Shown here: positions 17,444 through 35,101 of the stretch, piece by piece
How the letters are laid out: each line of letters begins with the position of its first letter
Position numbering within the stretch: the first letter of the stretch is position 1
NCBI GenBank assembly: GCA_002478145.1
Contig: DLMI01000054.1
Span: 1-35,471 of the forward strand
Direction of reading: 5' to 3'
DNA length: 35,471 nucleotides
DNA from: Acidobacteria bacterium UBA7540
GTDB lineage: Bacteria; Acidobacteriota; Terriglobia; UBA7540
The notes under the pieces: generated by a model
Told to the model about the DNA's origin: nothing
What the model saw: the letters and a program-made list of their open reading frames with translations, nothing else
Databases searched by the model: none
Position numbers and translations under genes: made by a program

Positions 17444-20218
17444 TCAGGGAAAGTTCATCACCAGTCCTCGGTGGTCGATGAATTTCTGGAATTCCGCTGC
17501 CGCTGCGCTGCCGTCGTGGAGCATGAGATAGGCTTCCCCACGCAAATAAACGGGCGCGAGGTTCGAAGCCCCGCCAAGTTCGACCGTGCTCGCCGCCTTC
17601 AATAGTTCGATTGCCCGGTTCGGGTCTTTGCCTTCCAGGGCGACCCCAGCCCGGATGGTGGGCAGCCAATACCTCTGCACCAGGGTGTCCAGCGGGAAGG
17701 TCTTGTCGAGTTCGGCCGCCAGCTTTTCCGCCCCTGCCGTGTCGCCTGCCCGTGCCAGGGCCAGCGCCGCCATGGCCCGAACATCGCGGTTCGGGGCCAG
17801 CTTCAGCGCCGCATTGGCCTCGGCACGCGCCTGCTCCCGGTTTCCCGCTTCCACCTCGCGCAGCGCTGCCGCCGCCTGATAGGCTGCGGCCGCCTCTTTA
17901 GCGTCGTTGTGCTGGGCTGAATCCATCGCCCGCCCGGTCAGCTCGTGCGCGTTCTTCAGCTTGCCGTACCAACCTTCCGTGTCCGCTTGCTCGGCCAGCA
18001 ACATGTCTTCCGCGCCCGGCTTGCCCATGGCGGCTGAGGCCAATTGCGCCATCTGCGCCGCATCGCCCTTCAGAAAAGCCAACTGGTAGCGGTTCGCGAG
18101 CAGAGCCTCGTTCTCCAGCTTGCGCTCCTGCGCCTGCTTGTACACCGCCTCCGCCTCATCCAGCCGGTTGAGGCTCATGTAGGCCTGACCGAGGTTGAGA
18201 TAGTTGGCCCCAGCATTTGGCTCCAGGCGCAGCGCCTCTCGAAATTCCTCCAATGCCTTTTCCCAGTTTCCTAGGTAGGTGGAAATACATCCCAGCTGAT
18301 TGCAAGGCACGGCGTCTCTCGGGTAGGTCTGCTGCCACAGCTCGAAGATCTGCGCCGCCTTCTCCAGCTCTCCCGTCCCAAACTGGTAGTAGTCCCCCTC
18401 GATGCCGAAGCGTTCCCGTTCGCTTACCTTCTCCCGCAGGTCGTAAGCCTTGCGTGCATTTTCGGCCGCCCGCTGCGCTTCGTTTAGGCTCGAGTAGAGA
18501 CCCGACATGGTGGCGTAGACCCTGGCAAAATTCGGATCAAGGTCCACCGCCCGCTTGTAGAAAGGCAGAGCGGCTGTTTCCCCTTTCGCATATTCCGTCT
18601 TTACTCCCAGGCTGTAGGCTTTCAGCGCCTCCAGGGATGGCGTGGTCGCCTCCTCCACCGGCGTGGCGTACTTCTGCACCGAGCTGAGCGACTCGCCCAG
18701 CTTGCCGCGCAAGCTGACCGCCGCGTCGTCCAGAGCCTTGAGCACCGCTTCCTTGCCCGCCGCCTGCTCCTGCGCCTCCGCCAGCACGTCCCCCGTGTTG
18801 CAGTTCACCGCCTTCAGGCCAATCACGTACTGGCTGCCCAGCCCCGCAATCGAGCCGGTCAGCATGGCCTTGCTCCCCGTGCGCTGGCAGACCTCGTGTG
18901 TGACCTCCGGCGTCAGCCGGTCACCAGCGGGACGGCCCATCAGCTTCAATGTCTCGTTCACCCTGCGCTCAGACACCAGGGCGAGAAAGGGCGATTGCTC
19001 AAGCTGCACCGAGAGCCCCTGTTTGAGCGTGTCGTCGAATACGCTGTCACCGGTCTTGTTGTCCAAATCGGAGAGGACGATGGTGTCCTTGTCGGTCAGG
19101 CGGGCCGTGGCCTGGCGCGAGCGGAAGTAGAGCGTTCCCCCGATGGCAGCCGCGACAAGCAGCAGGGCGGCGGGAACAAGAACCTTCCAGCGTTTTCGTA
19201 GGGCCCCTGCTCGTGGGCGCTCCCGCCCCGGCGGGACGGGCACCCGCCGCGGCGGGCCCGCCCCTACAGCGGGCGAGACGCCCGCGCTCCGCCCGGATTC
19301 CGTGTCGCGCTTCAGGCGCTTCAGGTCGGCGCATAGCTCGGCGGCGCTCTGACAGCGCAGGTCGCGATCTTTCTCCAGCGCCTTGTTGATGATACGTTCC
19401 AACTCGGCAGGACACTCGGGATTCAGCCGCACTGGTGGGGTCGGGGCCTGGGTGAGGATGGCCGTGAAAATCATCGCGGAAGTGTTGCCCGTGAAGGGCT
19501 GCCTACCGGTCGCCATCTCATACAGCACCGCGCCGAAGCTGAAGAGGTCCGTGCGTGCATCGAGCTCTTCTCCTCGCGCCTGCTCGGGCGACATGTAGGC
19601 GATGGTGCCCATCACCTCGCCCGGGCTGGTTAATTGCTCCTCCACGGTTCCGTAAGTCGCGGTTGGCACCTCTTGCAGGGCTTCTTTCCCCAGCCCCCGT
19701 CTTTCCGGCGTCAGCTTGGCCAAACCAAAGTCCAGGACCTTCGCCTGGCCACGCTGGGTCACGAAAATGTTCGCTGGCTTGATGTCGCGGTGGATGATCC
19801 CTTTCGAGTGGGCAGTGTCCAGCGCATCGGCAATCTGGATGGCAAGGTCGAGCAGGGTATCGATTTGTAGGGGCGAACGGCGTTCGCCCTGCTCCGTTGG
19901 GCGCGTGCCGCGCGCCCCTACATCCACCAAATGCTTCAGCGTCTGCCCTTCCAGGAATTGCATGACGATGAAGGGCTGGCCTTCGTGTTCGCCGATGTCG
20001 TGGATCGTGCAGATGTTGGGGTGGTCGAGAGCAGAAGCCGCGCGCGCCTCGCGCTTGAGCCTCTCCAGGGCCTCATGATCCTTTGCCAATTCCTCGGGCA
20101 GGAACTTGAGCGCCACGAAGCGGCCGAGCTTGGTGTCCTTGGCCTTGTAGACCACGCCCATGCCGCCGCCGCCCAGCTTCTCCAGAATGCGATAGTGAGA
20201 AATGGTCTTGTCAATCAT
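17444..20218 (-). CDS. PknB-type Ser/Thr protein kinase with C-terminal TPRs (premature TGA)
   Basis: I start at the ATG at 20218 because the family begins [16 protein letters not shown]; a GTG at 20239 is also in frame. The kinase domain (about 8-290) has [13 protein letters not shown], catalytic [11 protein letters not shown] and DFG, and ends before a proline/arginine-rich linker. One transmembrane helix (about 345-362, [20 protein letters not shown]) leads to an extracytoplasmic region. That region has an antigen-like beta segment ([20 protein letters not shown]) and about ten TPRs. Two interspersed repeats lie in the coding sequence: one adds residues about 100-117 in the kinase domain and another about 311-340 in the linker. 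The frame ends at a TGA after MNFP, although the normal family C-terminus continues in frame for 53 codons. Such kinases are numerous in this phylum; targets are unknown. Confidence 0.92.
19198..19285. repeat. Hairpin repeats inside the kinase juxtamembrane coding region
   Basis: A GTAGGG...CCCCTAC-bounded, GC-rich element (19198-19267) is followed at once by a second repeat, GCGGGCG/CGCCCGC around AGA (19269-19285). Read in the kinase frame they encode [11 protein letters not shown] and an Arg/Pro-rich stretch. AGVSPA is a widely seen translation of this repeat in acidobacterial genomes. The insertions keep frame and lie between the kinase domain and the membrane helix, where extra length should be tolerated. 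Confidence 0.75.
19867..19921. repeat. Double-hairpin repeat inside the kinase domain
   Basis: GTAGGGGCGAACGG starts the element and CGCGCCCCTAC ends it. It contains an 8-bp hairpin GGGCGAAC/GTTCGCCC and a second GGGCGCG/CGCGCCC hairpin, the same plan as the copy at 546-598. In frame it encodes about 18 residues ([19 protein letters not shown]) between HLVD and [15 protein letters not shown]. That position is a short loop before helix E in related kinases. Confidence 0.8.
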
Positions 20219-20366
20219 GCGAGGAACCAGCCGCTGCACGCCATCTTAGGCTGCGTTTGCAGCTAAGTCAACGCGATAGCATTATCCGCGACAGTTCAAG
20301 TAGCGGAAGGCGCTGAGCCGGCTCTTGCGTCGCCGTGACAGAGCGTCTCCGAATTATTGGAAGTAT

Positions 20367-20472: not shown

Positions 20473-21864
20473 ATGCCTCCTGCTAAAACCGTAGGCAAAG
20501 TCGGGATCGTCGAGAGCGACGTCGAGGAATGCTCCAAGATCGCTTCCGCGCTTAGGCGGGCTGACTTTGAAGTGCTGGAAGCCAACGACTACGACGGGGC
20601 GTACGAGATGCTCCGCGAACGCCAACCGGACGTTCTCCTGCTCGAACTCAAAACTTCCCCGCAAGGTATTCGAAAGTGCCTCGAGCTTCTCGAGGAACTG
20701 GAAGAGAGCGAACTTGATACGGTGGTCATCATCCTCAGCGAAGACAGCACGAAATCTACAGCGCTGCGGGTGATGCACGCCGGCGCTTATGACTACTTCC
20801 AGAAGCCCGCCGATCCTGACGTGCTGCGCATCATCATCCTCCGCGCCATCGAGAAACTCCAAATCGAGCGGGAGCACCTCATCCTGCGGGAAGAACTGCG
20901 CCGCAAAGACGCGCTCGGCGACTTACTGGGTTCGACTGAGGCCATGAAAGGTTTGTTCGACACCATCCGGCGGGTGGCGCGCACCTCAACGACCGTGGTG
21001 ATTCGCGGGGAAAGCGGCTCCGGCAAGGAGCTGGTGGCACGCGCCATCCACGAGGCCAGCCAGCGGCGCGACCGGCCGTTCGTCAGCGTCAACTCCGCCG
21101 CCCTCCCGGAAACCCTGATGGAGGCCGAGCTTTTCGGGTATGAGAAAGGGGCCTTCACCGGGGCCGTTGCCACCAAAGAGGGGCGGATCGAGCTGGCACA
21201 CCGCGGCACACTCTTCCTGGATGAGATCGGGACACTAAGCCTGCCGCTTCAGAGCAAGCTCCTTCGGGTCCTCGACGAACACGCCTTGACGCGCCTGGGG
21301 GGAAAGAAATCCATCAAGGTGGATTTCCGGCTGATAAGCGCTACCAACGAGGACCTCGAGAAGGCGGTGCGCGAGCGCCGCTTCCGCGAAGACCTTTACT
21401 ACCGCATCCACGTTATGCCGCTTTTTGTGCCTCCTCTCAGGGAGCGCGTGGATGACATCCCCCTGCTCGTCGAGTACTTCATCAAAGTTTACTGCGCGGC
21501 GAACCATTGGCCCCCAAAGCAAGTGGCCGATGAGGTGATGGAGGCCATGAAACGTTACCCGTGGCCGGGGAACGTTCGCGAGCTCGAGAACCTGGTTCAG
21601 CGCCTGGTGGTCATGACGGATGAAGATATCATCCCGCTGAAACAATTGCCTCGCGACATCCGCGAAGCTGTCCCTCAATCGTCAGCCGATGGATTTCGCC
21701 TCCCCGACTCCGGCATCCGGCTGGAAGAAGAGTTGAAAGCCTTCGAGAGGCGTTGGGTTGAGACGGCGCTCAAGGAAGCCAAGGGGGTTAAAGTTGAGGC
21801 CGCTCGCCTGCTTGGGCTCAACAAAGACAAGATGAAGTACCTTTGCCGGAAACACGGGATCTAG
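20473..21864 (+). CDS. Sigma-54-dependent transcriptional activator (NtrC family) with an Asp-to-Glu receiver
   Basis: The 463-residue protein has the three NtrC-type parts. The receiver (about 8-125) keeps the Lys of YFQKP, but the phospho-acceptor position reads PDVLLLELK, with Glu58 in place of Asp, and the acidic pocket is ES rather than DD. The AAA+ domain (about 145-385) is intact. It has Walker A GESGSGKE at 179-186, the sigma-54-contacting GAFTGA loop at 226-231, Walker B TLFLDEIG, and RFREDLYYRI with the arginine-finger region. A Fis-type helix-turn-helix ends the protein (VEAARLLGLNKDKMKYLCRK). Glu may mimic the phosphorylated state, so activity may not need a kinase. No sensor kinase gene is adjacent. 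Downstream on the same strand are the two small peptide genes, the first with a -24/-12-like promoter, making them the natural candidate targets. Confidence 0.95.
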   Translation: MPPAKTVGKVGIVESDVEECSKIASALRRADFEVLEANDYDGAYEMLRERQPDVLLLELKTSPQGIRKCLELLEELEESELDTVVIILSEDSTKSTALRVMHAGAYDYFQKPADPDVLRIIILRAIEKLQIEREHLILREELRRKDALGDLLGSTEAMKGLFDTIRRVARTSTTVVIRGESGSGKELVARAIHEASQRRDRPFVSVNSAALPETLMEAELFGYEKGAFTGAVATKEGRIELAHRGTLFLDEIGTLSLPLQSKLLRVLDEHALTRLGGKKSIKVDFRLISATNEDLEKAVRERRFREDLYYRIHVMPLFVPPLRERVDDIPLLVEYFIKVYCAANHWPPKQVADEVMEAMKRYPWPGNVRELENLVQRLVVMTDEDIIPLKQLPRDIREAVPQSSADGFRLPDSGIRLEEELKAFERRWVETALKEAKGVKVEAARLLGLNKDKMKYLCRKHGI

Positions 21865-22168: not shown

Positions 22169-22185
22169 TTGGTGCGCAACGTGCA
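22169..22185 (+). promoter_or_regulatory. Sigma-54 (-24/-12) promoter candidate for the first peptide gene
   Basis: TTGGTGCGCAACGTGCA has the invariant GG and GC exactly ten bases apart and matches most of the TTGGCACG-N4-TTGCA consensus. The predicted transcript start is about 50 bases before the first peptide start codon. A sigma-54 activator is the upstream neighbour. A much weaker GG-N10-GC (22429-22442) precedes the second peptide gene. Confidence 0.5.
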
Positions 22186-22245: not shown

Positions 22246-22365
22246 ATGCCGGAAAAGAAGAAGCAAGTGAAAGCAGCGCCCAGGATGGATCTCAAGAAGA
22301 CCCTCCAGGGAACCAGGAAGGTTGGCGAAACAAAGCTGATGGTGACGCATCCCGGGACTTCGTGA
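22246..22365 (+). CDS. Small lysine-rich peptide, copy 1 (39 aa), candidate precursor peptide
   Basis: The ATG follows GAGGAT with six bases of spacing and the frame runs 39 codons to a TGA. The peptide begins MPEKKKQVKAAPR, is strongly basic, and ends KVGETKLMVTHPGTS. It is paralogous to the 33-residue peptide 106 bases downstream: both have E-K-K-K, V-K-A-A-P, K-K-T-L, a basic G-(T/S)-(R/K)-K-(V/L) stretch and an identical GETKLM followed by a His-Pro tail. Differences between the copies are mostly conservative at protein level, which supports translation. There is no signal peptide, no membrane segment and no Cys. With the converging PqqD-M50-HlyD operon it looks like a substrate or leader-bearing precursor, but that is inference; no family is known to me. 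Confidence 0.75.
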   Translation: MPEKKKQVKAAPRMDLKKTLQGTRKVGETKLMVTHPGTS

Positions 22366-22470
22366 GGCCTGGGTACTGCTAGCCGTGCGGCCGCAAGTTC
22401 AGAAGTTCTTTATCGATGACCGCCACAGGGGTGTGGCGTAGCACAAATCAAAAGAAGGGAGAATAAAACC

Positions 22471-22572
22471 ATGGCAGAGAAGAAGAAGGTAAAAGCTGCC
22501 CCCAAGAAAACTCTGAAGGGCAGCAAGAAGCTGGGCGAAACAAAGCTGATGATACATCCCCCGACCCATTAG
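22471..22572 (+). CDS. Small lysine-rich peptide, copy 2 (33 aa), candidate precursor peptide
   Basis: The ATG at 22471 is preceded by AAGGGAGAA with about eight bases of spacing. The 33-residue product begins MAEKKKVKAAPKKTLKGSKK and ends LGETKLMIHPPTH. It is shorter than copy 1 by an internal gap after the AAP element and one residue near the end. Eleven of its first 20 residues are Lys or Arg-like basic residues. Nucleotide similarity between the copies continues past both stop codons (GGCCTGGGTACTGC versus GGCCTGGATACTGC), which indicates a recent tandem duplication of the whole unit. A strong stem-loop follows at 22585-22622, separating it from the converging M50 gene. A role as substrate of the M50/HlyD system is inferred from position and from the PqqD-like domain. 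Confidence 0.8.
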   Translation: MAEKKKVKAAPKKTLKGSKKLGETKLMIHPPTH

Positions 22573-22584
22573 GCCTGGATACTG

Positions 22585-22622
22585 CCGCCTGGGCGCGAGA
22601 GACCTGCTCTTGCGCCCAGCGG
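22585..22622. terminator. Strong stem-loop between the peptide genes and the M50 operon
   Basis: CCGCCTGGGCGCGAGAG pairs with CTCTTGCGCCCAGCGG around ACCTG. The stem is about 16 bp, with one bulged C and one G-T pair. It lies 12 bases after the second peptide stop and 35 bases from the M50 stop on the other strand. The T-run is poor, so it may act as a bidirectional block or an mRNA 3' end rather than a classic terminator. Confidence 0.65.
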
Positions 22623-22657
22623 TGGTCTGTTATGCTGTCGCATTGCGCCGGGAGCAA

Positions 22658-24799
22658 TCACCAGATGAGGCTGCGTACCCCTCGCCACCCCGCGCGTAGC
22701 GCCCGTATGGCCACCGGATAGCGCTTCCCATAGATCCGCGCCGTTCCGGTCATTCCTTCCTTTAGCCCGCCGTTAGGATTGGGGAATTCCATTACAACCT
22801 CGAAAAAGTTGGTCAGTTCCTGACCCTTGCGTTCAACCTTGTTGGGCTCTGCCAGGGGGCGTTCGGAAGAGGCGGCCGGCATGATCTGGCGAATCGTTCC
22901 CGAAAAGGTCTGGAAGGGATAGCTTCGGAGTTTCAGCCCGACCGCCGCACCCTGGTGCACATCCTCAAGTTCCCAGTCCCGCACCAGCACTCGCGCGCGC
23001 ATAGCCTGGCGGTCCACAAGAAGAGCCAGCGGCTCCCCTTCAGTCAAGTATTCGCCCACCCGCTGCTCGATTTGTGGGGTGGCGATTACCCCCGTGAAAG
23101 GGGCGCGCAGGACCAACTGTTCGCGCTTCCGGTCGGCTTCCGCCTTTTCGGCTCCCAGACGCTGGATTTCCTGGAGGTATCTCTCGCTGGCGCCGAAATC
23201 CGAGCGGGCCAAGGCTGCCCGCTGGGAGCTTTCGGCTAAACTCAACTGACTGGCAACTATCTCGGCCTGGGCTTCAATCTCTGGGTTGTGTAGCACGGCC
23301 AGCACTGAACCGGTCGGGACGGTCTCACCTTCCCGGACGGTTACCTCGCGGACCAAACCCGAGACCGGGGTCTTCACCTCCAGCCTCCTTTGAGGTTCCA
23401 GCAAAAAATCCGACGTTGTCTTGACCGCCGTGGGCGGAAGGAAGAGCACAAGAAGCGCCGCGGCCCCTGCCACTGGTTGCCACCAAGTCATCCTCCATGC
23501 CATGAACTCCTCCTTGAGTTTTTGCAAGTGAGCCCGCACCGCAGTCTGCCATTGCCCGAGCCGCTTGCGGAATGCGAAGCACAGCACTCCAACGGTTGCG
23601 AGGTGCCCCCAGGCGCCTAGCCAGCCTATAAAGGCGTTGTCCACAAATCCCAGCAATAACAAGAGGATCAGCAGGGAGTAAAGCCCCGCCGAGAAACCGT
23701 ACGCCAGAAAAATCCGCTGCTCCCTGCGGCTGGCCGGGGGCAGTTCGACTGCCTGACGAAGCACGCTGCGTCTTAACCAAGCCGCGGAATATGCAAACGA
23801 TTGCTCACGAAGGTTATCAACCTGGAGGTACTGGCTCAGCACGTAGTAGCCGTCGATCTTGAGCAGCGGGTTGAGTTGAAAAAAGCCGATCACACCGCTC
23901 ATCAGAGCGAACTGGTACGTCAGGTCGCCGGCCACGGAGCCCGGCGGCGATAAGGCCCAAACGAAGAGGGCAAAGCAGCACTGGAGCAGGGTGACCCATA
24001 TCCCCGCAATGATCGTCCAAATGCGCTGCGAAGTCTTGGCGAAAACGTGCATGTCGGTGCAATCGGTGTAAAAGGACGGAGAGAAATACAAAAGCATGAA
24101 GCCCATGTGGTGCACTTCGCCGCCGAAGTGCTTGCAGGCCAGGCCGTGAGCGAACTCGTGAGGTCCGACGATGATAAACAACATCAGCCACATAACCAGG
24201 AGGTCATAGCCGCTCTTATGTCCAGGACCGTAGATCGCCAGGGCTTCCTGGCTGACGCGCGTGAAGTCACGGGCCACGATCACCCCGGCCAGGGCGAAGA
24301 GGCCGAGCGAGAAGAGGACAAACTGCTTCGTGAACATCCAGCCCAAATACCTGTCCAGGCGTTCCAGCGCCCGGTCGGGATCAAAGGCTGAAAAGTAGAT
24401 GTAAAGCAGGCTGGCGTGGTTCACGCGCTCACGACGCTCGTCGCGGATCTTCTCCAAGATGCAGAGATTTTTTTGCGCAGCTCCGCGCTCCCAGAAGTTG
24501 GGATCCACGCCGTCCAGGTACTCGATCACGTCCTGTTCGCTCAGGTTCTGGTCCGAGTAGCGTTCGTTGAGCGCTTGCGCAACTTCGGCCGGAGCACGAG
24601 CGCCATTGCACAGCGAGAGCAGCTCCCAATCCAGCTCGCCCAGGCGATTGAAGGAGTCCGTCTCAGGGACTTTGACCACGAAGCTGGTTTCCCCGGCAAA
24701 CGTCTGCTTGCCGACCTTCAGGTCGGTGCGCAGCTTGGGGCGCCGAAGGCCCTTCGCCACCACACCCGAGAGTTGAATACTGGTGGGACCGAAACGCAT
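22658..24799 (-). CDS. PqqD-like / M50 site-2-type zinc protease / HlyD fusion membrane protein
   Basis: The 713-residue protein combines three modules. Residues about 25-110 form a PqqD-like domain (FVVKVPETDSFNRLGELDWE then EQDVIEYLDGV), a fold that binds leader peptides in RiPP systems. The central membrane region (about 150-430) is an M50 metalloprotease: HEFAH with His214, Glu215 and His218 as zinc site, and the second motif QLNPLLKIDGYY with Asp316. After a last helix (about 448-465) comes a HlyD-type periplasmic adaptor with a split lipoyl-like domain (VKTPVSGLVREVTVREGETV ... LRAPFTGVIATP) and a coiled-coil hairpin between. It is the last gene of a three-gene operon and converges on the two peptide genes. 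The likely role is to bind a small peptide, cut it in or at the membrane and pass it outward; the substrate is inferred. No radical-SAM or ABC transporter gene is adjacent. Confidence 0.92.
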   Translation of the reverse strand: MRFGPTSIQLSGVVAKGLRRPKLRTDLKVGKQTFAGETSFVVKVPETDSFNRLGELDWELLSLCNGARAPAEVAQALNERYSDQNLSEQDVIEYLDGVDPNFWERGAAQKNLCILEKIRDERRERVNHASLLYIYFSAFDPDRALERLDRYLGWMFTKQFVLFSLGLFALAGVIVARDFTRVSQEALAIYGPGHKSGYDLLVMWLMLFIIVGPHEFAHGLACKHFGGEVHHMGFMLLYFSPSFYTDCTDMHVFAKTSQRIWTIIAGIWVTLLQCCFALFVWALSPPGSVAGDLTYQFALMSGVIGFFQLNPLLKIDGYYVLSQYLQVDNLREQSFAYSAAWLRRSVLRQAVELPPASRREQRIFLAYGFSAGLYSLLILLLLLGFVDNAFIGWLGAWGHLATVGVLCFAFRKRLGQWQTAVRAHLQKLKEEFMAWRMTWWQPVAGAAALLVLFLPPTAVKTTSDFLLEPQRRLEVKTPVSGLVREVTVREGETVPTGSVLAVLHNPEIEAQAEIVASQLSLAESSQRAALARSDFGASERYLQEIQRLGAEKAEADRKREQLVLRAPFTGVIATPQIEQRVGEYLTEGEPLALLVDRQAMRARVLVRDWELEDVHQGAAVGLKLRSYPFQTFSGTIRQIMPAASSERPLAEPNKVERKGQELTNFFEVVMEFPNPNGGLKEGMTGTARIYGKRYPVAIRALRAGWRGVRSLIW

Positions 24800-24808
24800 G
24801 GGGAACTC

Positions 24809-25015
24809 AGTCGAGAGTCAATAGTCGAAGGTCGAGGAGTTAGTCTAGAGTCGACAGTCCACAGTCGACAGCCAAAGGTCTAAGAGGAGGCGCCGTTGGG
24901 ATCCTCACCCTCTCTCCAGGGAGACGGCTGTATTTACGACCAGGCAGTCAGTTTTGACTCTCGACTCTCGACTATCGACTGACTCCTTGACCCTCGACTC
25001 TCGACTTTAGACTCC
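24809..25015. repeat. Inverted arrays of GTCGAGA-type 7-base repeats (operon spacer 2)
   Basis: The left arm (24809-24870) has units such as GTCGAGA, GTCAATA, GTCGAAG, GTCGACA, GTCCACA and GTCGACA. The right arm (24946-25015) has the complementary CTCGACT, CTCGACT, ATCGACT, CGACTCT and CGACTTT series. They flank a 75-base unrelated core and could pair over a long distance. The right arm extends into the HlyD gene and encodes its last 14 codons including the stop. Confidence 0.85.
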
Positions 25016-25910
25016 AGATCACTCGCACCGCCATTCCCGGCCGCAGGTTTTCCAGATGGGGTCCCGTCAACTCTGCCGTAAGATCATAGCTGGCGCTGGC
25101 AGCATCCACGGTAGGGCTGACCAATTTCACATGCGCGTTATACTCGTGCGACTTGTCATCCGCCGGCACTACTTTCAACGGATACCCGGCTGTGGGCCGT
25201 GGGCCTGCCGACTCCGGCAGTAGAAACCGGACCTGGAGCGGGTAAAGCTCGCTTAAGCGAAAGCAAAGGTCATTTTTGATCATGTTCTGTCCAGCGCGGA
25301 TAGCCCGCCGGACAATGTATCCGTCGAAGGGGGCCACTATTCGAGTCTTTTCCAGCTCGATCTCCAGCTCGTGAACTGCCGCTTTTTTTTGCTCGATGGC
25401 AGCCTTCCAGCTATCCAGATCGAAGCCTGCGCCGGTGGATTGAAACTCGGCTTCCTCCAGCGCCGCTTGACTGCTCAAACCGAACTTGCGCAACTCCTGC
25501 TGCCGTCGATAGGCAGCATCCTTGGCCTTTTTCTCAGCTTCCTGGTACTTGAAGTTATTTTCAGCCACCCTCTGGTCCAGGCGAGCTTTTTCCAAACTGG
25601 CAAGCAACTCGCGGTCGTCCAGGCGTGCGAGCACCGCTCCTTTCTTTACCCAACTGTCCTGGTCGTAGAAGAGCTCTTGCACAATCCCGTCGCGCTGGGC
25701 GAGCAAATCCACAGAGTGTTCGACCGACAATACACTTGCAATCTCCAGAGTGTCCGCAGCCGGCACGGAAGGCGGCTGGGCAGGAGCTTGGGTGACACTG
25801 GGCTGCGGCGATGCGGCAGGGGTTGCTTTTTGTTGAGACTGGTTCGCACACCCGGGAACACCCAGAATAGCAGCCAGGATTCCGAACAGGACCCAATCAG
25901 ATCGTTTCAT
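24972..25910 (-). CDS. HlyD-family membrane fusion lipoprotein
   Basis: The frame is open far upstream into the preceding gene, but the ATG at 25910 is chosen because it gives a lipoprotein signal (LAAILGVPGC, lipidated Cys about 21) and has CGAGG eight bases upstream. The 312-residue product then has a Pro/Ala/Gln-rich linker and a lipoyl-like half (AQRDGIVQELFYDQDSWVKK). A helical hairpin of about 90 residues follows, then the second half (TRIVAPFDGYIVRRAIRAGQ) and a beta-barrel domain (LRPGMAVRVIW). This is the periplasmic adaptor of type I or RND-like export. The last residues (SLKSRVEGQGVSR) are encoded by the intergenic repeat array, so the original C-terminus may have been replaced. 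It is the second gene of the operon and shares its adaptor fold with both neighbours. Confidence 0.9.
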   Translation of the reverse strand: MKRSDWVLFGILAAILGVPGCANQSQQKATPAASPQPSVTQAPAQPPSVPAADTLEIASVLSVEHSVDLLAQRDGIVQELFYDQDSWVKKGAVLARLDDRELLASLEKARLDQRVAENNFKYQEAEKKAKDAAYRRQQELRKFGLSSQAALEEAEFQSTGAGFDLDSWKAAIEQKKAAVHELEIELEKTRIVAPFDGYIVRRAIRAGQNMIKNDLCFRLSELYPLQVRFLLPESAGPRPTAGYPLKVVPADDKSHEYNAHVKLVSPTVDAASASYDLTAELTGPHLENLRPGMAVRVIWSLKSRVEGQGVSR

Positions 25911-25927
25911 TGCTTCAGCCTCGCGGT

Positions 25928-26062
25928 AGTCGAGGAGTCGAGAAGTCGAGGAGTCGAGAGTTTGACCACTGACCTGCATCCGACTTTTCGACTCTTGGCC
26001 GCAGGAGAAATCGAAGATCGGGGATTTCACTTCTCGATTCTCGACTTCTCGACTCCTCGACT
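25928..26062. repeat. Inverted arrays of AGTCGAGG/AGTCGAGA repeats (operon spacer 1)
   Basis: The left arm (25928-25950) consists of alternating eight-base units AGTCGAGG and AGTCGAGA. It is perfectly complementary over 23 bases to the right arm (26040-26062), with partial pairing continuing inward. The 89-base interior carries a few more CGACTT/TCGAAG units. The right arm starts three bases after the stop codon of the GAF-HlyD gene, and the left arm ends 17 bases before the HlyD start, so the structure fills the spacer of the operon mRNA. Confidence 0.9.
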
Positions 26063-26064
26063 TC

Positions 26065-28488
26065 TTACGGTAGCAGTGCCCAGACCTTCCGCCATGCCCA
26101 TTGCGTTGGGGCGCGCAGCAGCATGTAGCCCACCGGATACCACCCGCTGTGGAACCAGCCTCCCGCGCTGGTAATCTTCGCCTGACCCGCCATGCCATCG
26201 CGGGCTTTGACATCAGGATTGGGGAACAGGGCACGCGTTACGAAGAACTGCTCGCCCTCGGCAGAAATGGTCTGGGGGGAGACTCGCTCCACCGATCCCC
26301 GGAGCGTTAGGGTGGGATAGGCATTCAATTTGAGGGCCACGGGCGCGCCGGTTCGAATCAGGGATATATCGGTTTCTGGAACGTTCATTTCGACCGCCAA
26401 GTGGTCCTGATCCACGAGCTCACAGAAGGCGTCGCCCACCTTGAGCAGTTTCCCAATTTTCTCTTCCACCTTAGGTGTCACAACGACGCCCGGGATGGAG
26501 GCCCGGAGATGCGCCTTATCGACTTTTTCCTGATAGAGGGTGACCTCTGCCTGGTGGAGGTCCATGTTCAGCCGGGCTTGGCCGGCGCCGGCCCAATCCC
26601 TCTTTTCCTCCGCCTCGGCAAGCTGGCGGTGGGCAAGCGCGAGGTCGGTCAAGGCCCGTTCCAGCCGGATTCTGTCATCGCTGTCGTCCAGTCGGGCCAA
26701 CTCGTCTCCGGCGTTTACTCTTTGCCCTTCCCGGACAGGTACTCCTTGGACAATGCCGCTGACCTCGGCGCTCACAATGCGGCGCTCGGCGGGGACCACG
26801 GTGGCGTTCGTCTGGATTCGGTACTTCCAGGGCACTACGATCAAAACCAGCGCAGCTATCCCAGCCTTCGATGCAATCTCGAGCCAGCGGCCGGCTGTGA
26901 TCCCTTCCAGTTTGCGCTTGCTCTTGAGCACGGGCTGCCAAATGCTCAGCAGCGGCACGTCCTGGTAGAGCCGGGCATTGCGGATGGCCACAGTGATCTG
27001 GCTGGCAAGGATAGCGAGAACCTCCAGATGGCTTTCCGATAGGAATTCTGCGGTGTTGCTCAGGAGGGCCAGCACGCCCACGGTCCCCTGTTCATCGCGC
27101 AGAGGCATGGCGTAGAAGCCGCTCAGTCTCTGCTCTTCCATGTAGCGCACCAGCGCCGCGTTCGCTCCCTCCGGCTTAACTTTCCACCCCTCTTCAGTCT
27201 GGTCAGCCGAGACCGCCTCCGGTTGCTCAGCCACCCACGCCAGCAGTTCACGCAACTGCTCCATTTCGCGGGTCCGCGGTACCTCGGCTTCCCCCGAAAC
27301 AGCACCCAGTATAAAGCGGTGGCGGTCATACAAACCGATGACGCACTGATCGAAGGGGACGACGGTGGCAGCTTCGTGAACCACCGTGGTGAGGACATGA
27401 TCGAGATTGAGCGTGGAGGTTATTTCCTTGCTGATGGTGAGGAGGGCGTCCAGGGTGTGAACCTTTCGCTCCGCCTGCAACAGATTGGCATTGTTCAGGG
27501 CGTTGGAGGCCTGCTCGCACATGTTGGTGAGGTAAAACAGGTCATCCTCATCAAACGGCTTTCCATCTGATCGGTTGACGATTTCCACGACCCCCAACAC
27601 CCGCTCTTCCTTCAGAAGAGGCGCGCACATCAGCGATTGGATTTGATACTTCTCGCTTGCCTGTACGCGGGCCTCAAGTCCCGGCTCATCCTGGGCGCTT
27701 GAGACCAGGCGAGCTTGGCCGGTCTGGGCCACGCCCCCAGCCATGCCCTCTCCAATTTGAAGGCGGCTACCCTTGTTGGTCGTCGGATCCTCACCCGCTT
27801 GCTGCGCGCAAAGCAGCTCGTTCGTTCCGGAATCCACCAGCCAGAAGTTGCAGGCCAGGGCGCCGAGGTTCCCTTGGATCTTCTCAGCCATAATGGGCAG
27901 TAGATCCTCAAGCTCCAGCGTAGAAGTGAAGGTGCTCGCCACATCGTAGAGCGCGGTCAATCGTTCAATCGTCTCCAGGCTCGACCACTTTTCCTGCTCG
28001 ACGGCGCGCAAAGCATCCAGAACCCGGCCCGCCAGTCGGCAGGCTTCTTCAACGAAGCCTGCGTCATTGGCTGTAAATTCTCCCGTGCGCTTGTTCAATA
28101 CCTCCAGGACGCCGGCCACGTCTGTAGAGGTCGGGATGGGTGCGTACAAGGCCGTTGCCACGCGCTCCCGGTCGCCTTCCGCGAGATGCGGGAACATCTC
28201 CGGCTCGATTTCCTCCTCGTCGAGCCGCCGCGCACGTGATTTTGCTAGCATCTCGGCCAGAATACCTTCGCTCGCCTGCCCCGGAGCAAACTCCAGCCGA
28301 AGTCCGGCCTCGAACCAGCGAGAGCGACAGAGCAATTCCCCACCCCTCTCCTGACGTAGCCAAACCATCGCCGCACGGGCCTCCAGATCTCGGCCAACAT
28401 GCGTGACAAGCGTCTTCGCAAAACTGTCAATGCTGTTGCAGGAGTGAAATCCAACCGATAGTTCAAAAAGGGAGGACAACTGCTCCAT
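26065..28488 (-). CDS. Triple-GAF / HlyD fusion membrane protein
   Basis: The 807-residue protein has three successive GAF domains in its cytoplasmic part: about 5-160 (LFELSVGF ... LYAPIPTSTDVAGVLEVLNK), 170-335 (LTALYDVASTFTSTLELEDL ... MCAPLLKEERVLGVVEIVN) and 345-510 (LLTISKEITSTLNLDHVL ... AMPLRDEQGTVGVLALLS). One transmembrane helix (about 545-562) follows. The C-terminus is a HlyD-type adaptor with lipoyl-like halves (VSAEVSGIVQGVPVREGQRV ... RASIPGVVVTPKVEEKIGKL), a helical hairpin and a beta-barrel. GAF domains bind small ligands or cofactors, so an export adaptor would be gated directly by a cytoplasmic signal. There is no kinase, cyclase or phosphatase domain. It is the first gene of the operon; the start has no obvious ribosome binding site. 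The 248-base divergent spacer to the STAS gene must contain its promoter. Confidence 0.93.
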   Translation of the reverse strand: MEQLSSLFELSVGFHSCNSIDSFAKTLVTHVGRDLEARAAMVWLRQERGGELLCRSRWFEAGLRLEFAPGQASEGILAEMLAKSRARRLDEEEIEPEMFPHLAEGDRERVATALYAPIPTSTDVAGVLEVLNKRTGEFTANDAGFVEEACRLAGRVLDALRAVEQEKWSSLETIERLTALYDVASTFTSTLELEDLLPIMAEKIQGNLGALACNFWLVDSGTNELLCAQQAGEDPTTNKGSRLQIGEGMAGGVAQTGQARLVSSAQDEPGLEARVQASEKYQIQSLMCAPLLKEERVLGVVEIVNRSDGKPFDEDDLFYLTNMCEQASNALNNANLLQAERKVHTLDALLTISKEITSTLNLDHVLTTVVHEAATVVPFDQCVIGLYDRHRFILGAVSGEAEVPRTREMEQLRELLAWVAEQPEAVSADQTEEGWKVKPEGANAALVRYMEEQRLSGFYAMPLRDEQGTVGVLALLSNTAEFLSESHLEVLAILASQITVAIRNARLYQDVPLLSIWQPVLKSKRKLEGITAGRWLEIASKAGIAALVLIVVPWKYRIQTNATVVPAERRIVSAEVSGIVQGVPVREGQRVNAGDELARLDDSDDRIRLERALTDLALAHRQLAEAEEKRDWAGAGQARLNMDLHQAEVTLYQEKVDKAHLRASIPGVVVTPKVEEKIGKLLKVGDAFCELVDQDHLAVEMNVPETDISLIRTGAPVALKLNAYPTLTLRGSVERVSPQTISAEGEQFFVTRALFPNPDVKARDGMAGQAKITSAGGWFHSGWYPVGYMLLRAPTQWAWRKVWALLP

Positions 28489-28736: not shown

Positions 28737-29072
28737 GTGACCATTAATATCAGAACAGTTGATCAGGTGACCATTCTTGACCTCAACGGCCCCTTTAAAG
28801 CAGGTGAAGCTGAGCAGGCCTTTCGAAACTCCGTCGGCGAGGCGCTCTCCGCCAGCGTCACGAGACTTGCCGTAAACCTTGCGGGCGTGTCTTTTCTCGA
28901 TAGCTCCGGTGTCGGCGCACTGGTTCGCACTTTTTCGGCCCTGAAAGAAAGAGGGGGTGAATTCAGACTCTTTGGGGCCTCAAAACAGGCCGCTCAAACC
29001 CTCAGGATGGTTCGTCTGGACAAAGTCCTCGGACTGGCGGAAGATGAGACCGCTGCCCTCGCGAGTTTTTAG
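28737..29072 (+). CDS. STAS-domain anti-sigma-factor antagonist (SpoIIAA/RsbV-like)
   Basis: The 111-residue protein starts at a GTG (GCGAGG is five bases upstream) and is a single STAS domain. It opens MTINIRTVDQVTILDLNGPF and has the phosphorylation motif FLDSSGVGAL, with Ser57 (or Ser56) as the expected site. It ends with an amphipathic helix (RLDKVLGLAEDETAALASF). Such proteins bind and release anti-sigma factors or act in stressosome-like switches under control of a kinase and a PP2C phosphatase, neither of which is encoded nearby. It is divergent from the GAF-HlyD operon. Confidence 0.93.
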   Translation: MTINIRTVDQVTILDLNGPFKAGEAEQAFRNSVGEALSASVTRLAVNLAGVSFLDSSGVGALVRTFSALKERGGEFRLFGASKQAAQTLRMVRLDKVLGLAEDETAALASF

Positions 29073-30611: not shown

Positions 30612-30698
30612 GTGGTTTTTCCAATTCAGTGATTGATCGGAAATTGCAGCACCTATTACGAAGCTGGGGGCTCGAGCATGGTCTTCAGGGGGAAGGGA

Positions 30699-32891
30699 AT
30701 GGTGAGACGTCTACTCAGTTTGCTCGCTCTACTCTTTTTGGCCGGGGCCGCAGTTGACGCGCAAGAGGCGAAGAAGCCTTTGACCATCGAGTTGGTCACC
30801 CACCCGCAAGGGCTAAGCACGATGGGCCTCTCCCGCTTGGAATGGCGTCCGGGGGGCAAGGAGATCAGCTACCTCAAGCGCCAGGGCTCCGGCAAGGGTG
30901 CTGTCCTCACCCTTTATCTCTATGAGATTGCGGGCGGCAAGGAGCGAGTTCTTCTTGGACCTCCCAACGACACGGTTGAAGGCGAGAAGCTTGACCTCTC
31001 TTCATATCAATGGTCCCCGGGCGGCGACGCGCTGCTACTCCAGGGTGAAAAGGATATCTGGCTTTACAACCTGGCGACCGGCCAGATGAAATCCCTTGTC
31101 AAGGACGCTATGCCGGTAGAGGACGCGACGTTTTCTCCCACGGGCGAGCGTGTGGCATTTGTGGAGCAGAACAACCTCTTGGCCCTCGACCTTAGGACGG
31201 GACTTCGTGAAAAGCTCACGGACGACGGCAACGAAAACGTGATGAACGGCAAACTCGATTGGGTTTACGAAGAGGAACTTGCCAATCGTGCCACCGGTCG
31301 GGCGTACGAGTGGTCGCCGGATGGGAAGAAGATTGCCTACCTTCGCCTGGACGACGCCCCCGTGCCTCGATACCCGCTGACACATTACTTGTCCAACCAC
31401 GTGGAACTTAGCGAGGAGCGGTTCCCTCAGTCGGGTGACCCGAATCCCATTCCTTCTCTCCATGTCGTTTCCGTGGAAGGCAGCGAGCACCAGAGCTGGA
31501 CGTCGACCGCGGCGAAATCCGTCGAATACTTCGGTCCCTCGTTTTCCTGGACGCCTGACTCGAAGGCGGTCGCGTTCCTCACGCTCGACCGCGCCCAGGA
31601 CGAGTTGGACGTCCATCTCTGGGATGCTGCCGCAGGCGCCCATCGCCTTCTGCTCACAGAAAAGGATGCGTACTGGATCAATTCGCTCGAGCCGCCGCAC
31701 TTCCTCGGCGACAACCAGCGGTTCCTCTGGCTCTCGGAGCGAGACGGCTGGTTGCACCTCTATCTCTATGGCCGCGATGGAAAGCTGCAGAAACAGCTTA
31801 GCCACGGCAACTGGATGATCGATCGTCCCTTTTTCCAAGACCTCCCCATCATCGGCTTGGACGAAAAGGGCGGCTGGGCCTACTTCGCGGCCACCAACCC
31901 GGACCCACGCGAGCGCCAGCTCTACCGCGTGAGGCTGGATGGCAGCGGTTTGGAGCGCCTCTCGCAGCAGCCCGGAGTCCACGGGCTGAACCTCTCGCCG
32001 GATGGCCAGTTTCTGCTCGACAACTTTTCCTCACTCCATGACCCGCCGGAAACCCGGCTGCTCAAGGCGGATGGGTCGCTCCTCACCACGCTGAGCAAGC
32101 AGACGCCCCATCTCGATGATTACGCGCTGGGCAGGACGGAATTAGTAGAAGTGAAAGCCCCAGACGGCGCCACGCTCTACGCGCGCCTGGTGAAGCCCCC
32201 GGACTTTGACCCGGCGAGGAAGTATCCGGTCATCATCGAAGTGTACGGCGGCCCCCACATTCAACTTATCCAGAACCGCTGGGGCCTGACTTCCCTCAGT
32301 GACCATCTCTTCGCGGAACAGGGCTTCATCCTGTGGTCGCTCGATAATCGCGGCGCGTGGGGGCGAGGACACGCTTGGGAATCAAGGGTGTTTAAGGACT
32401 TGGGGCACTACGAGCTTGAAGACCAGCTTGCCGGCGTCGCCTACCTGAAGTCTCTCCCTTATGTCGACCCTATGCGGATCGGCATTACCGGGTGGTCCTA
32501 CGGCGGCTATATGACGCTCTATGCGCTAACTCACGCACCTGACGTGTTCAAGTGCGGCGCGGCGGGTGGTCCCGTCACCGACTGGAAGTTCTACGACAGC
32601 ATATACACCGAGCGCTACATGCGCACGCCCCAGGAAAATCCGGACGGGTACAAGACTTCCTCCCCGCTCGAGGCCGCCGATAAGCTGAAAGCCAAAGTGC
32701 TGCTGATCCAGGGCACCGACGACGACAACGTCCACATGCAGAACACCCTGAACTTCGTAGAAGCTCTAGTCAAGGCGCACACACTCTTCGATCTCTACCT
32801 CCAGCCGGGAGAAAAGCACGGATTCGCTAGCGAGGCAGCGAGGTTCTACCTCACCCAGCGCTTGCTGGGATTCTTCAAGCAGAACCTCTAA
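30699..32891 (+). CDS. Secreted S9B peptidase (dipeptidyl peptidase IV-like)
   Basis: Several starts are possible; the ATG at 30699 follows a purine-rich AGGGGGAAGGGA and gives a signal peptide (MVRRLLSLLALLFLAGAAVD, cleaved near AQEA). The mature protein has an eight-bladed DPP IV N-terminal propeller (about 60-480), with YEEELANRATGRAYEWSPDG, a typical substrate-contacting loop carrying the Glu pair EE. The alpha/beta hydrolase domain (about 500-730) has the nucleophile Ser600 in GWSYGGYM, the acid in GTDDDNVH and the base His in GEKHGF near the C-terminus. The family removes X-Pro or X-Ala dipeptides from peptide N-termini. The gene is monocistronic, followed by a hairpin repeat region. 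Confidence 0.95.
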   Translation: MVRRLLSLLALLFLAGAAVDAQEAKKPLTIELVTHPQGLSTMGLSRLEWRPGGKEISYLKRQGSGKGAVLTLYLYEIAGGKERVLLGPPNDTVEGEKLDLSSYQWSPGGDALLLQGEKDIWLYNLATGQMKSLVKDAMPVEDATFSPTGERVAFVEQNNLLALDLRTGLREKLTDDGNENVMNGKLDWVYEEELANRATGRAYEWSPDGKKIAYLRLDDAPVPRYPLTHYLSNHVELSEERFPQSGDPNPIPSLHVVSVEGSEHQSWTSTAAKSVEYFGPSFSWTPDSKAVAFLTLDRAQDELDVHLWDAAAGAHRLLLTEKDAYWINSLEPPHFLGDNQRFLWLSERDGWLHLYLYGRDGKLQKQLSHGNWMIDRPFFQDLPIIGLDEKGGWAYFAATNPDPRERQLYRVRLDGSGLERLSQQPGVHGLNLSPDGQFLLDNFSSLHDPPETRLLKADGSLLTTLSKQTPHLDDYALGRTELVEVKAPDGATLYARLVKPPDFDPARKYPVIIEVYGGPHIQLIQNRWGLTSLSDHLFAEQGFILWSLDNRGAWGRGHAWESRVFKDLGHYELEDQLAGVAYLKSLPYVDPMRIGITGWSYGGYMTLYALTHAPDVFKCGAAGGPVTDWKFYDSIYTERYMRTPQENPDGYKTSSPLEAADKLKAKVLLIQGTDDDNVHMQNTLNFVEALVKAHTLFDLYLQPGEKHGFASEAARFYLTQRLLGFFKQNL

Positions 32892-33242: not shown

Positions 33243-33662
33243 CTATTCTGTGCGGGACGCAGCCCAGATGATCAAGATCACCATAAGGACGCCGATTCCA
33301 GCCAGCCCGTAAATCAAACCCCTGCTAAATTTCTTCCCCGTCGTCTCACCCTCGATCTTTTTTAGGGTCTTTACTTCTGTAAAGGTAATCTTCTGCGTCT
33401 CAACCTTGTTTCCTTGCGCTGTCTGCAGACTGAAGCCCTCGTTTGTGACCTCCCCGAGCCTCCCCCTGAGTGTTTGCTTGTTCATGAGGCGTACTTCAAT
33501 CATTGTTCCGGGTGGAATTTCCATAATGCGCTCCTGCACAGTCGCTTTCTTGGTTGTTTCCTGTGGCAAGGAAGCGCCTGTGGCAGAGGCTCCGACTCTG
33601 GCCTCTAAAAGCGAATTGCCGAACAGAACTGATATCAGAATCAGTAGGATCGTGTCTCTCAA
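33243..33662 (-). CDS. Membrane-anchored Sm-like-domain protein (TTG start)
   Basis: The frame is open to 33947, but the upstream part is not protein-like. I start at a TTG at 33662, which has GGAGGT six bases upstream and places a hydrophobic export signal at the N-terminus (TILLILISVLFGNSLL). The 139-residue product then has an Sm-like beta-barrel domain (about 48-105: PPGTMIEVRLMNKQTLRGRL, then EGFSLQT). A C-terminal transmembrane helix ends it (LIYGLAGIGVLMVILIIWAA). The Sm-like part is clearly related to that of the protein encoded at 34480-35013. The domain topology suggests an envelope protein with the barrel outside the cytoplasm. Function is unknown. Confidence 0.8.
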   Translation of the reverse strand: MRDTILLILISVLFGNSLLEARVGASATGASLPQETTKKATVQERIMEIPPGTMIEVRLMNKQTLRGRLGEVTNEGFSLQTAQGNKVETQKITFTEVKTLKKIEGETTGKKFSRGLIYGLAGIGVLMVILIIWAASRTE

Positions 33663-33943
33663 AGCAGCACCTCCAAGTGCTAAGCTGAAATTTCTTCCTC
33701 GAATTATGACAAGCCTCCCTTCGGGATCCCGCGGGGAAAAGATTTCCGACGGCGATGCATTTTGTTCTTGCTTCGCAGGTGGCGCAGACACGCCGGGGTT
33801 TGACATGTTTGCGGTCGGGAAGGGGACTCCATTTGTAGGACCCCCGCCGGCGCCCCGCGGCTCTGGACGTACCACCACTCGCGGGCATCCAGAAGCGATC
33901 TCTTCCCGACAGAGCCGGGACAGGCCGCCACCCGGGAGCGCCA

Positions 33944-34456
33944 TCATCCCGTGCCGAAGACAATACCAACCCGAGAGCCAACCAAGTGCACGGCCTCTCC
34001 GGTCTCGGGTGAAAAGACATGATGGCGGAATTCGAATCGCAGGCCGAACCGTCGTCGCACCCAGTAATTCATTCCGCCACCGTAGTGAATCGCTACTGCC
34101 CCGCCGTTGCCGGCAAGCAGAGAGAATCCGCCGTCCACGAAAGGATCGAATTTGCGCTTCGAATCCCTGGAGATGAAATGAAAGGCGGGCGTCACCGAAG
34201 CCAGGCCGGTCGTAATGGCGTATTGGTTTGTGACCGGCTTGAGAACCCCTATTTCACCCCCCAGGGCGAACCGGTCGGTGAGGCGGCCCTCGCCTCCTCC
34301 TCCCGCATGGACGAAGTCCCCGTTCCAGCGTGTGAAGGCGCTCTTCGGCACGACCACCGGTCCGCCAAACGCGTAAACATAGCCGCTTGACATCTGTGCA
34401 GCGGCTGGGAAAGAAGCGAGTACCATAATCAGCAATCCAAGGATTGCCTTGACCAT
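33944..34456 (-). CDS. Small outer-membrane beta-barrel protein
   Basis: The 170-residue product begins with a signal peptide cleaved near FPAAAQ, and AAGGGGA lies six bases before the ATG. The mature part alternates short amphipathic strands with glycine turns (GYVYAFGGPVVV, RFALGGEIGVL, ASVTPAFHFIS, FDPFVDGGFSLL, HYGGGMNYWV). It is consistent with an eight-stranded OmpA/OmpX-type barrel, but the last residue is not the usual aromatic (ends GIVFGTG). It starts 23 bases after the upstream Sm-like protein gene and is probably co-transcribed with it. No specific function is evident. Confidence 0.85.
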   Translation of the reverse strand: MVKAILGLLIMVLASFPAAAQMSSGYVYAFGGPVVVPKSAFTRWNGDFVHAGGGGEGRLTDRFALGGEIGVLKPVTNQYAITTGLASVTPAFHFISRDSKRKFDPFVDGGFSLLAGNGGAVAIHYGGGMNYWVRRRFGLRFEFRHHVFSPETGEAVHLVGSRVGIVFGTG

Positions 34457-34479
34457 CGCATTCCCCTTTCAACTCAGGC

Positions 34480-35013
34480 TCATTTTCTGGGCTTCGTCGC
34501 GGCGCGGTAGACGTCGTGCCAGCCGCCCGTGGGCAACACAGCTCCCAGGCCAGTTCCTACTGCCGCACCCACAAACCCTGCCAACGCGGCACTCGTAGCA
34601 TTGATGCAAGATCCCTGCGCACATTTCCCTTGACCCAGTTCAGGGGAAGCAACGCCGACAACGACCCCGGCGCCGGCACCGACCGCGAGGCCGATCAGTG
34701 CGTTCCGGCCGCGGTGGGTGTTGCCTCGCGTGGAGACCCGCAGAACGTTTTTCCGCTCAAATGTCTGGCTATCCTTCCCGACGCGGAGCACGATCCCATC
34801 ATCGCTCACGCTTTGAAACTGGCCGCTGTAAGACTTAGCGTCGTTCAGCACGATCCGGATCTGCTCGCCCGGCGCCAGTTGTTTGAGGTTGTCCCAGTTA
34901 TTCTGTGAAGATTGAGCCAAGCCGGATCCTTGGACCATAAGCAGAAGCAGCACGGCAACTACCCATTTCAAGCTCCAACTTGTTCGTCTTAACGTTTTAT
35001 TTGCTGAGACCAT
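34480..35013 (-). CDS. Exported Sm-like-domain protein with a glycine-zipper tail
   Basis: An earlier ATG at 35058 is in frame, but the ATG at 35013 has TGAGG five bases upstream and is followed by a normal signal peptide (WSLKWVVAVLLLLMVQGSGL, cleaved near AQSS). The 177-residue protein has an Sm-like domain (about 48-97: LAPGEQIRIVLNDAKSYSGQ, then DDGIVLRVGK). A glycine-zipper membrane-associated region follows (NALIGLAVGAGAGVVVGVAS and ALAGFVGAAVGTGLGAVLP), with two Cys between. It leads a probable operon with the beta-barrel gene. Similar exported proteins are common in Acidobacteriota but uncharacterised. Confidence 0.85.
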   Translation of the reverse strand: MVSANKTLRRTSWSLKWVVAVLLLLMVQGSGLAQSSQNNWDNLKQLAPGEQIRIVLNDAKSYSGQFQSVSDDGIVLRVGKDSQTFERKNVLRVSTRGNTHRGRNALIGLAVGAGAGVVVGVASPELGQGKCAQGSCINATSAALAGFVGAAVGTGLGAVLPTGGWHDVYRAATKPRK

Positions 35014-35101
35014 GGAAGCCTCACTCTTGCTGTGTCGTTCACAGATGTGCCTAGCCACGGTCGATTCGCTCGATGAATCAACCGCGGGTTTGTGGTTGTA
35101 G

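Follow-up and report, generated by a model that had tools for sequence, protein, structure and literature searches.

A candidate sigma-54-controlled system for the release of short, variable peptides in acidobacteria

What might two very small genes do that converge on an operon of adaptor proteins, one of which is fused to a protease? The question is raised by contig DLMI01000054.1 (assembly GCA_002478145.1) of Acidobacteria bacterium UBA7540, of which a stretch of 35,471 nucleotides was analyzed as a whole (the window). An earlier note had described two paralogous open reading frames (ORFs) that end close to a three-gene operon, and had proposed that their products are bound, cleaved, and released by the operon's proteins. 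Both micro-ORFs were confirmed (micropeptide 1 at 22246..22365, 39 amino acids [aa], and micropeptide 2 at 22471..22572, 33 aa, both on the + strand), and Pfam and motifs likewise bore out the convergent operon with its GAF-HlyD, HlyD, and M50-HlyD proteins and an intact HExxH. That description was sound for peptides and operon; it had overlooked a sigma-54-dependent response regulator (RR), a candidate promoter, the division of the peptides into leader and tail, and repeat-bearing relatives. Judged from sequence comparisons, the locus probably represents a system under the control of sigma-54 and the RR that makes and releases short variable peptides.

Each micropeptide gene starts with ATG behind a plausible ribosome site (assessed by eye), and the two products share 25 identical columns when aligned, peptide 2 being 33 residues long. 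Both consist of a conserved leader that runs through GETKLM and a short tail, VTHPGTS in peptide 1 and IHPPTH in peptide 2. A profile built from the pair recovered 94 homologues at E ≤ 10 among 95 candidates from public predictions (weakest E value 0.012; lengths of 29 to 70 aa). With peptide 2 added, these 95 peptides, termed clade 1 herein, carried 83 distinct tails versus 21 variants of the last 16 leader residues, and entropy was 0 to 1.0 bits in leader columns versus 2.9 to 3.8 bits in tail columns. Tails were mostly short (3 to 9 residues in 94 of 100 counted), and those of clade 1 were rich in V/I (20.7% versus 8.2%) and poor in R and D/E relative to six-frame translations of the intervals in which the genes lie. 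The leader is Lys-rich and ends in K-L-[M/Q] or K-x-L in most forms. GETKLM, which the earlier note had offered as a mark of the family, served as such in the window's clade; other clades have other leader versions.

Leader and tail also differed in how they evolve. Two sets of homologous peptides, with 7 and 6 sequences (a pair of paralogs from one locus in each), gave pN/pS values of 0.13 and 0.12 for the leader and 1.08 and 1.03 for the tail. A trio of loci (L078, L080, and L081), with its three pairs summed, gave 8 synonymous and 0 non-synonymous differences in the leader, and 10.7 synonymous and 23.3 non-synonymous differences in the tail. Because the sites are near saturation, the tail values indicate weak constraint or fast change and are not proof of positive selection. 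By sequence, the micropeptides appear to be precursors of the kind used by ribosomally synthesized and post-translationally modified peptides (RiPPs), that is, ribosomal products with a conserved leader and a variable end, and we infer that the variable tail is the released core. At the thresholds applied, neither window peptide had a match in Pfam, NCBIfam, or PHROGs, and for micropeptides of relatives the Pfam and NCBIfam matches were below cut-offs, save Pentapeptide for locus L001. Since the peptides also lie near the lower size limit of many annotations, the family is easily missed. A truncated additional leader end, GNAKLM with a short tail after it (by eye), was seen at about 11480 (-) in L005 and may be the remnant of a peptide gene.

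The link between peptides and operon, which the earlier note had set beforehand as the point on which its proposal could be refuted, survived with few exceptions. A search with the M50 fusion returned six acidobacterial loci, two of which had window-type peptides: L005 with four copies, and L006 with two that lie about 7 kb past the M50 gene, yet directly behind the RR gene. The others (L003 of genome G003, L001, L002, and L004) encode a different peptide at the same position between M50 and RR, with a Lys-rich leader and LQ-based repeats. The gene order GAF-HlyD, HlyD, M50, peptides, RR recurs in relatives, the GAF-HlyD matches of L001 and L075 being just the adaptor part of their own M50 proteins on cut contigs. 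RR and M50 genes were convergent in 26 of 32 loci, and the contig ends before the RR in the remaining 6. When a micropeptide was defined as an ATG-started ORF with at least six K in the first 22 residues, a rule that misses real ones in L004 and one with a GTG start in L005, one or more K-rich micro-ORFs were present in 24 of the 25 complete M50-RR intervals (L092, with an M50 at 32%, was left out, and L006 was represented by the first 1500 nt behind the RR). These ORFs numbered 45 on the RR strand and 0 antisense, with 0.3 expected from shuffles; they include further micropeptides such as MAKAKTVKKGKKLGSVKPL plus a tail. The 25th interval, that of L004, has a repeat-type peptide with 5 K, below the threshold. 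Among contigs that end before the RR, L087 and L089 have peptides, and L084 and L091 contain <200 nt of the interval.

Co-occurrence across genomes pointed the same way. Within the order of G005 (40 genomes), the clade-1 profile matched three genomes and the M50 query seven (three full-length at 58 to 67% identity, G003 full-length at 48%, and three partial at 35 to 36%), such that the peptide was found in 3/3 genomes with a clade-1 M50 and in 0/37 others. Within the order of G002 (95 genomes), the M50 fusion was detected at E ≤ 1e-120 in 27 genomes, 25 of them at ≥50% identity. A clade-2 profile of 30 peptides matched 22 of the 95 genomes, 20/25 with the M50 and 2/70 without it (Fisher p = 6e-14; G476 and G486, with an M50 at 33 to 34%, were counted among the 70). 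Five M50 genomes had no profile match; inspection of the intervals located peptides in G004, G492, and G493, and the other two, G497 and G498, had short contigs and no peptide. Many copies lie outside the main locus, with up to 10 matches in G494. In G481 and G491, peptide genes were seen behind an RR on separate contigs (L126 and L127); these may represent second loci or the end of a main locus split between contigs.

A more distant form extends further into the phylum. Among 396 genomes sampled across it (two candidates scored per genome), the M50 fusion was found at E ≤ 1e-60 in 28, all but G006 at 30 to 36% identity, and loci were obtained for 19 of the 28. The clade-1 profile matched G006 alone in this sample, so the window's own peptide version is rare. 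Beside the distant fusions, a convergent protein made of a leader plus tandem repeats was encoded in 14/17 loci with a usable downstream flank and in 0/15 usable upstream flanks; these loci are partly near-identical (e.g., L025/L028 and L031/L032), L033 shows the repeat part only, and L034 was seen in one of two scans. Repeats include (LAPNK)n, (SPLSN)n, and (LAKSTN)n, with a best period of 5, 6, 10, or 12 by script, depending on the locus, and of about 7 in L002 by eye. L092 also has a leader-plus-repeat protein.

What switches these genes on is suggested by the gene directly upstream of the peptides (20473..21864, +), which encodes a sigma-54-dependent RR with receiver, AAA+, and Fis-type helix-turn-helix parts (Pfam Response_reg, Sigma54_activat, and HTH_8). 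A candidate sigma-54 -24/-12 promoter, TGGTGCGCAACGTGCA, lies at 22170..22185 (+), 76 nt before peptide 1, and similar elements were found in relatives. The element was scored with a weighted consensus, TGGCAC-N5-TTGC, at a threshold of 17 chosen after an initial look at 15.5, in windows of 55 to 85 nt upstream of main-locus peptides, 50 to 90 nt for other peptides, and 55 to 90 nt for distant ones. A site 55 to 85 nt before the ATG accompanied 32 of 46 main-locus peptides versus 2.9% expected (31-nt window, antisense density). Outside the main locus, 19 of 27 peptides had one, the set covering 20 of the 27 additional contigs that gave matches; four of the 27 peptides (L126 and L127) sit behind an RR and all have a site, and without them the count is 15/23. 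Sites were also seen in 12 of 15 rows of the distant family, and seven scored perfectly; several rows are near-identical loci, and L068/L092 are one and the same. Peptide 2 of the window has no sigma-54-like element of its own and may be co-transcribed with peptide 1. Together with the adjacent sigma-54 RR, the positions of the sites, those before copies beyond the main locus included, point to one regulon.

The operon's last gene (22658..24799, -) encodes a protein of 713 aa in which a PqqD-like domain, resembling the RiPP precursor recognition element (RRE), is followed by an M50 metalloprotease and a HlyD/MacA-type adaptor; 85 nt separate its stop at 22658 from the end of peptide 2 at 22572, the two gene sets being convergent. 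The protease part carries HEFAH at residues 214-218 (24146..24160, -) and NPLLKIDG at residues 310-317 (23849..23872, -). H214, E215, and H218, as well as N310, P311, L312, K314, D316, and G317, were invariant in 19 aligned proteins, so that a candidate leader protease site (HExxH and NPLxKxDG) appears intact in all 19 M50s; the Pfam M50 model itself gave 16.8 bits, below its cut-off of 27.2. The periplasmic adaptor part (residues about 460-695; 22715..23422, -) matched MacA, MexA, and AcrA by Foldseek, with E values down to 1.4e-15, and MacA and EmrA of the PDB by HMM. AlphaFold modeled the whole fusion with a mean pLDDT of 79.8 and a pTM of 0.50.

The PqqD-like label of the earlier note has weak backing from sequence (24 bits against TIGR03859, cut-off 46) and gained support at the level of fold. 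The N-terminal 110 residues were modeled by AlphaFold with a mean pLDDT of 78.5, a pTM of 0.65, and a bbb-aaa topology for the domain (residues about 20-105; 24485..24742, -), and the seven best PDB matches were the leader-binding proteins TbiB1, PqqD, and lasso B1 (E values of 0.010 to 0.026). The modeled N-terminus thus resembles leader-binding RRE/PqqD folds, and such a fold beside an apparently intact protease site would fit the binding and cleavage that had been proposed.

Together these observations outline how the system may work. The RR, with sigma-54, would switch on the peptide genes; the RRE-like domain would bind the leader; and the M50 site would cut near the leader end or, where repeats are present, at their recurrent Leu motif, a cutting place suggested by the leader end K-L-[M/Q] or K-x-L together with the Leu motif of each repeat unit. 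Release of the tails might then take place at the membrane, with the adaptor domains carrying them outward and the GAF domains perhaps gating this passage. Such export is supported by the published idea that the M50 protease EpeP performs both cleavage and export of an epipeptide (PMC10885120). Peptide modification by the SET or TauD enzymes found sporadically may occur in some strains. The product would probably act as a signal or an antagonist, and which peptide it is would change quickly from strain to strain.

Several observations weigh against this interpretation. The E values of the RRE-like matches are 0.010 to 0.026 and none is <0.001. M50 site-2 proteases usually act on membrane-embedded substrates, and neither window peptide has a hydrophobic segment. 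The tails evolve near the synonymous rate, such that their variability may partly reflect missing constraint. When sigma-54-like sites were counted at all positions (threshold 15.5), they were hardly enriched (84 versus 71 antisense and 57.65 in shuffles), and the sigma-54 signal is therefore one of position and not of number. Linkage has exceptions as well: L041 and L077 run 2.5 and 0.9 kb past the M50 gene to the contig end, before any RR, without a K-rich micro-ORF; in G473 and G495, peptides were detected but no M50; in G418, clade-1 peptide and M50 are on separate contigs, with no M50 or RR within 19.5 kb around the peptide; and the downstream flanks of three distant loci (L022, L024, and L039) show no repeat protein. 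Finally, the 32 loci revealed no tailoring enzyme or transporter that is widely shared.

That last result was established from 342 ORFs, among which no family recurred widely beyond the adaptors and M50 protein, the RR, and a STAS-domain protein; the next recurring families were opposite-strand shadows of those genes and an ABC ATPase. The ATPase motif was present in 4/342 ORFs and 4/32 loci (L077, L078, L080, and L081), on the operon's far side and outside the M50-RR interval, three of the four being phosphate-type ATPases by eye, and a radical-SAM-like cysteine motif was present in 1/342 ORFs. A Pfam scan of 18 window proteins, both micropeptides among them, gave no radical-SAM or ABC-transporter match; it did not extend to three small ORFs at 33243-35058. 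The absence of a shared modifying enzyme, radical-SAM enzyme, or ABC transporter, to which the earlier note had pointed, holds in the 32 loci and the scanned window proteins, and is qualified by sporadic SET and TauD-like candidates in relatives. The system would work like a RiPP pathway but lacks a modifying enzyme in the cluster, and we have not filed it as one.

Among these candidates are SET-domain (lysine methyltransferase-like) genes. They lie inside three M50-RR intervals (L072, L078, and L081) and near Lys-rich micropeptides, also off the main locus (L132, the same as L163/L164; L138, the same as L161; L143; L145; and L162). For strong SET matches in the 95 genomes (E < 1e-17), a peptide was encoded within 1.5 kb of 9/17; L163 and L164 count as one region within these nine loci, and L147, L150, and L159 are main loci. 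Genomes with a strong match made up 8/22 of those with peptides versus 2/73 of those without, and any match above the cut-off was found in 9/22 versus 6/73. A TauD/TfdA-family oxygenase gene at L005:10321-11091, weakly similar to gamma-butyrobetaine and trimethyllysine dioxygenases, stands among four peptide genes. A branch with lysine methylation is possible in some strains, though not as a general feature.

Three other explanations were considered. In the first, the micropeptides are Lys-rich small proteins that remain inside the cell, within the same sigma-54 regulon, where they bind nucleic acids or ribosomes or regulate the adaptor complex, their tails being unconstrained and never cut. 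Their strong positive charge (+7 and +8 for the window peptides) and a tail pN/pS of about 1 agree with this, as does the weak similarity of one repeat-type relative to the histone-like HC2 model (15 bits, cut-off 40). However, the composition of the tails is far from that of six-frame translations, many relatives have tandem repeats built on a Leu motif, and the partner protein has a predicted leader-binding-like fold beside its protease, and we regard intracellular proteins as rather unlikely. A structural or surface role of the repeat-bearing members, which the M50-adaptor fusion would export and anchor and of which the short members would be reduced forms, is improbable: the repeats of L001 do match PF00805 Pentapeptide above its cut-off (30.6 versus 20.2 bits), whereas the repeat period varies between loci, which makes a common repeat fold unlikely, and clade-1 tails are mostly 3 to 9 residues long. 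Most improbable is a pearlin-like scheme in which the peptide serves as a carrier for a small product, assembled on or near its C-terminus and released from it by the M50. The short C-terminal tails speak for this, as does the precedent of TglG and TmoG, membrane M50s that remove modified C-terminal residues from a scaffold peptide (PMC10885120); these points are outweighed by 83 different encoded tails, mostly of 3 to 9 residues, and by the lack of a recurring biosynthetic family near the 32 loci.

Other features of the locus complete the picture around the putative peptide-releasing system. The middle operon gene (24972..25910, -; likely start 25910) encodes a HlyD-type adaptor of 312 aa (HlyD by Pfam), a probable lipoprotein with a lipobox GVPGC by eye, and the first gene (26065..28488, -) a GAF-HlyD protein of 807 aa with three GAF stretches, one hydrophobic segment, and a HlyD adaptor. 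Divergent from the operon is the STAS-domain gene (28737..29072, +), a member of the neighborhood in 17/32 loci, some cut short; an anti-sigma/serine kinase-like ORF of RsbW type (by eye) at L006:5953-6411, with a relative in L005, fits with it. A DPP-IV/prolyl oligopeptidase-family peptidase past the STAS gene (30633-32891) is not among the families recurring in the 32 loci, and a Ser/Thr protein kinase with TPR repeats on the opposite side of the RR (17444-20239) has a relative in L083 only. Genes for RND-type efflux adaptors and pumps (by eye) were seen near the peptides of two clade-1 genomes (L006:14507-18799 and L040:17226-19544). Between the two peptide genes lies a perfect hairpin, CGCCACA-GGGG-TGTGGCG (22421..22438, +), which was rejected as a shared element, the same form not being met again in relatives. 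A different, terminator-like hairpin, mostly (C/T)GCCGT-CCCAGGA-ACGGC(A/G), recurs 3' of peptide genes in the M50-RR intervals of L072, L074, L075, L078 to L081, and L085. A non-coding RNA was ruled out by the lack of an Rfam match above the gathering score in the window, and a tRNA-linked island by the lack of a tRNA.

Acidobacteria are common soil bacteria whose signaling and competition are little known, and the system was seen in some soil and groundwater members. If correct, the release of short variable peptides would add to them a peptide family, present here in two orders and, in its repeat form, more widely in the phylum sample, for which the locus offers a ready map of leader, tails, promoter, regulator, and protease. 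It is possible, and we propose it tentatively, that this constitutes a new class of peptide system, in which a sigma-54 regulon of scattered, fast-diversifying micro-precursors is served by one self-contained leader-binding/intramembrane protease/periplasmic-adaptor machine. This machine would cut short peptides and export them with no need of an ABC transporter, the products acting among acidobacteria as signals or weapons specific to each strain, and in some lineages peptide-linked SET enzymes would methylate lysines.

No description of such a system was found in the literature searched, mostly outside subscription papers and with supplements excluded, and the known RiPP and bacteriocin classes were discounted on model cut-offs and missing genes. 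Export of the NHLP/HlyD-type bacteriocin kind likewise combines a HlyD adaptor with leader peptides, but the M50 protein scored 20 bits against TIGR03794 (cut-off 156), and the ABC transporter with peptidase that stands beside such precursors was not found here (32 loci by motif; scanned window proteins). Pentapeptide-repeat proteins are represented by the L001 repeats alone, the other repeat peptides scanned and the window peptides being without a PF00805 match. Daptides supply the best-scoring named M50 model (NF041824, daptide_HExxH; 169 bits over residues 35-411, cut-off 300), from which the adaptor fusion and the Lys-rich precursors set the present system apart; daptide modification genes were not sought individually, and no such family recurs in the 32 loci. 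The lasso and PQQ leader-binding proteins TbiB1 and PqqD have the same bbb-aaa fold as the modeled M50 N-terminus, which is here fused to a protease and an adaptor, with no cyclase or PqqE partner seen. Prochlorosins (PMC10783134) resemble the micropeptides in that one protein serves numerous precursors, their leaders conserved and their ends variable; no lanthionine synthetase was seen here, and the present system differs further in its sigma-54-like control and its M50 adaptor. The epipeptide system (yydFGHIJ/epeXEPAB) shares a small precursor gene and a membrane M50 protease (PMC10885120). It has a radical-SAM epimerase beside the precursor, of which there was none in the scanned window proteins and none recurrent in relatives, and our M50 protein scored 44 bits against the YydH/LiaK model (cut-off 225). 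With its RRE-like domain and adaptor fused to the M50, the acidobacterial protein offers a way to ask if one protein both cuts and exports a peptide, the role suggested for EpeP in the same source.

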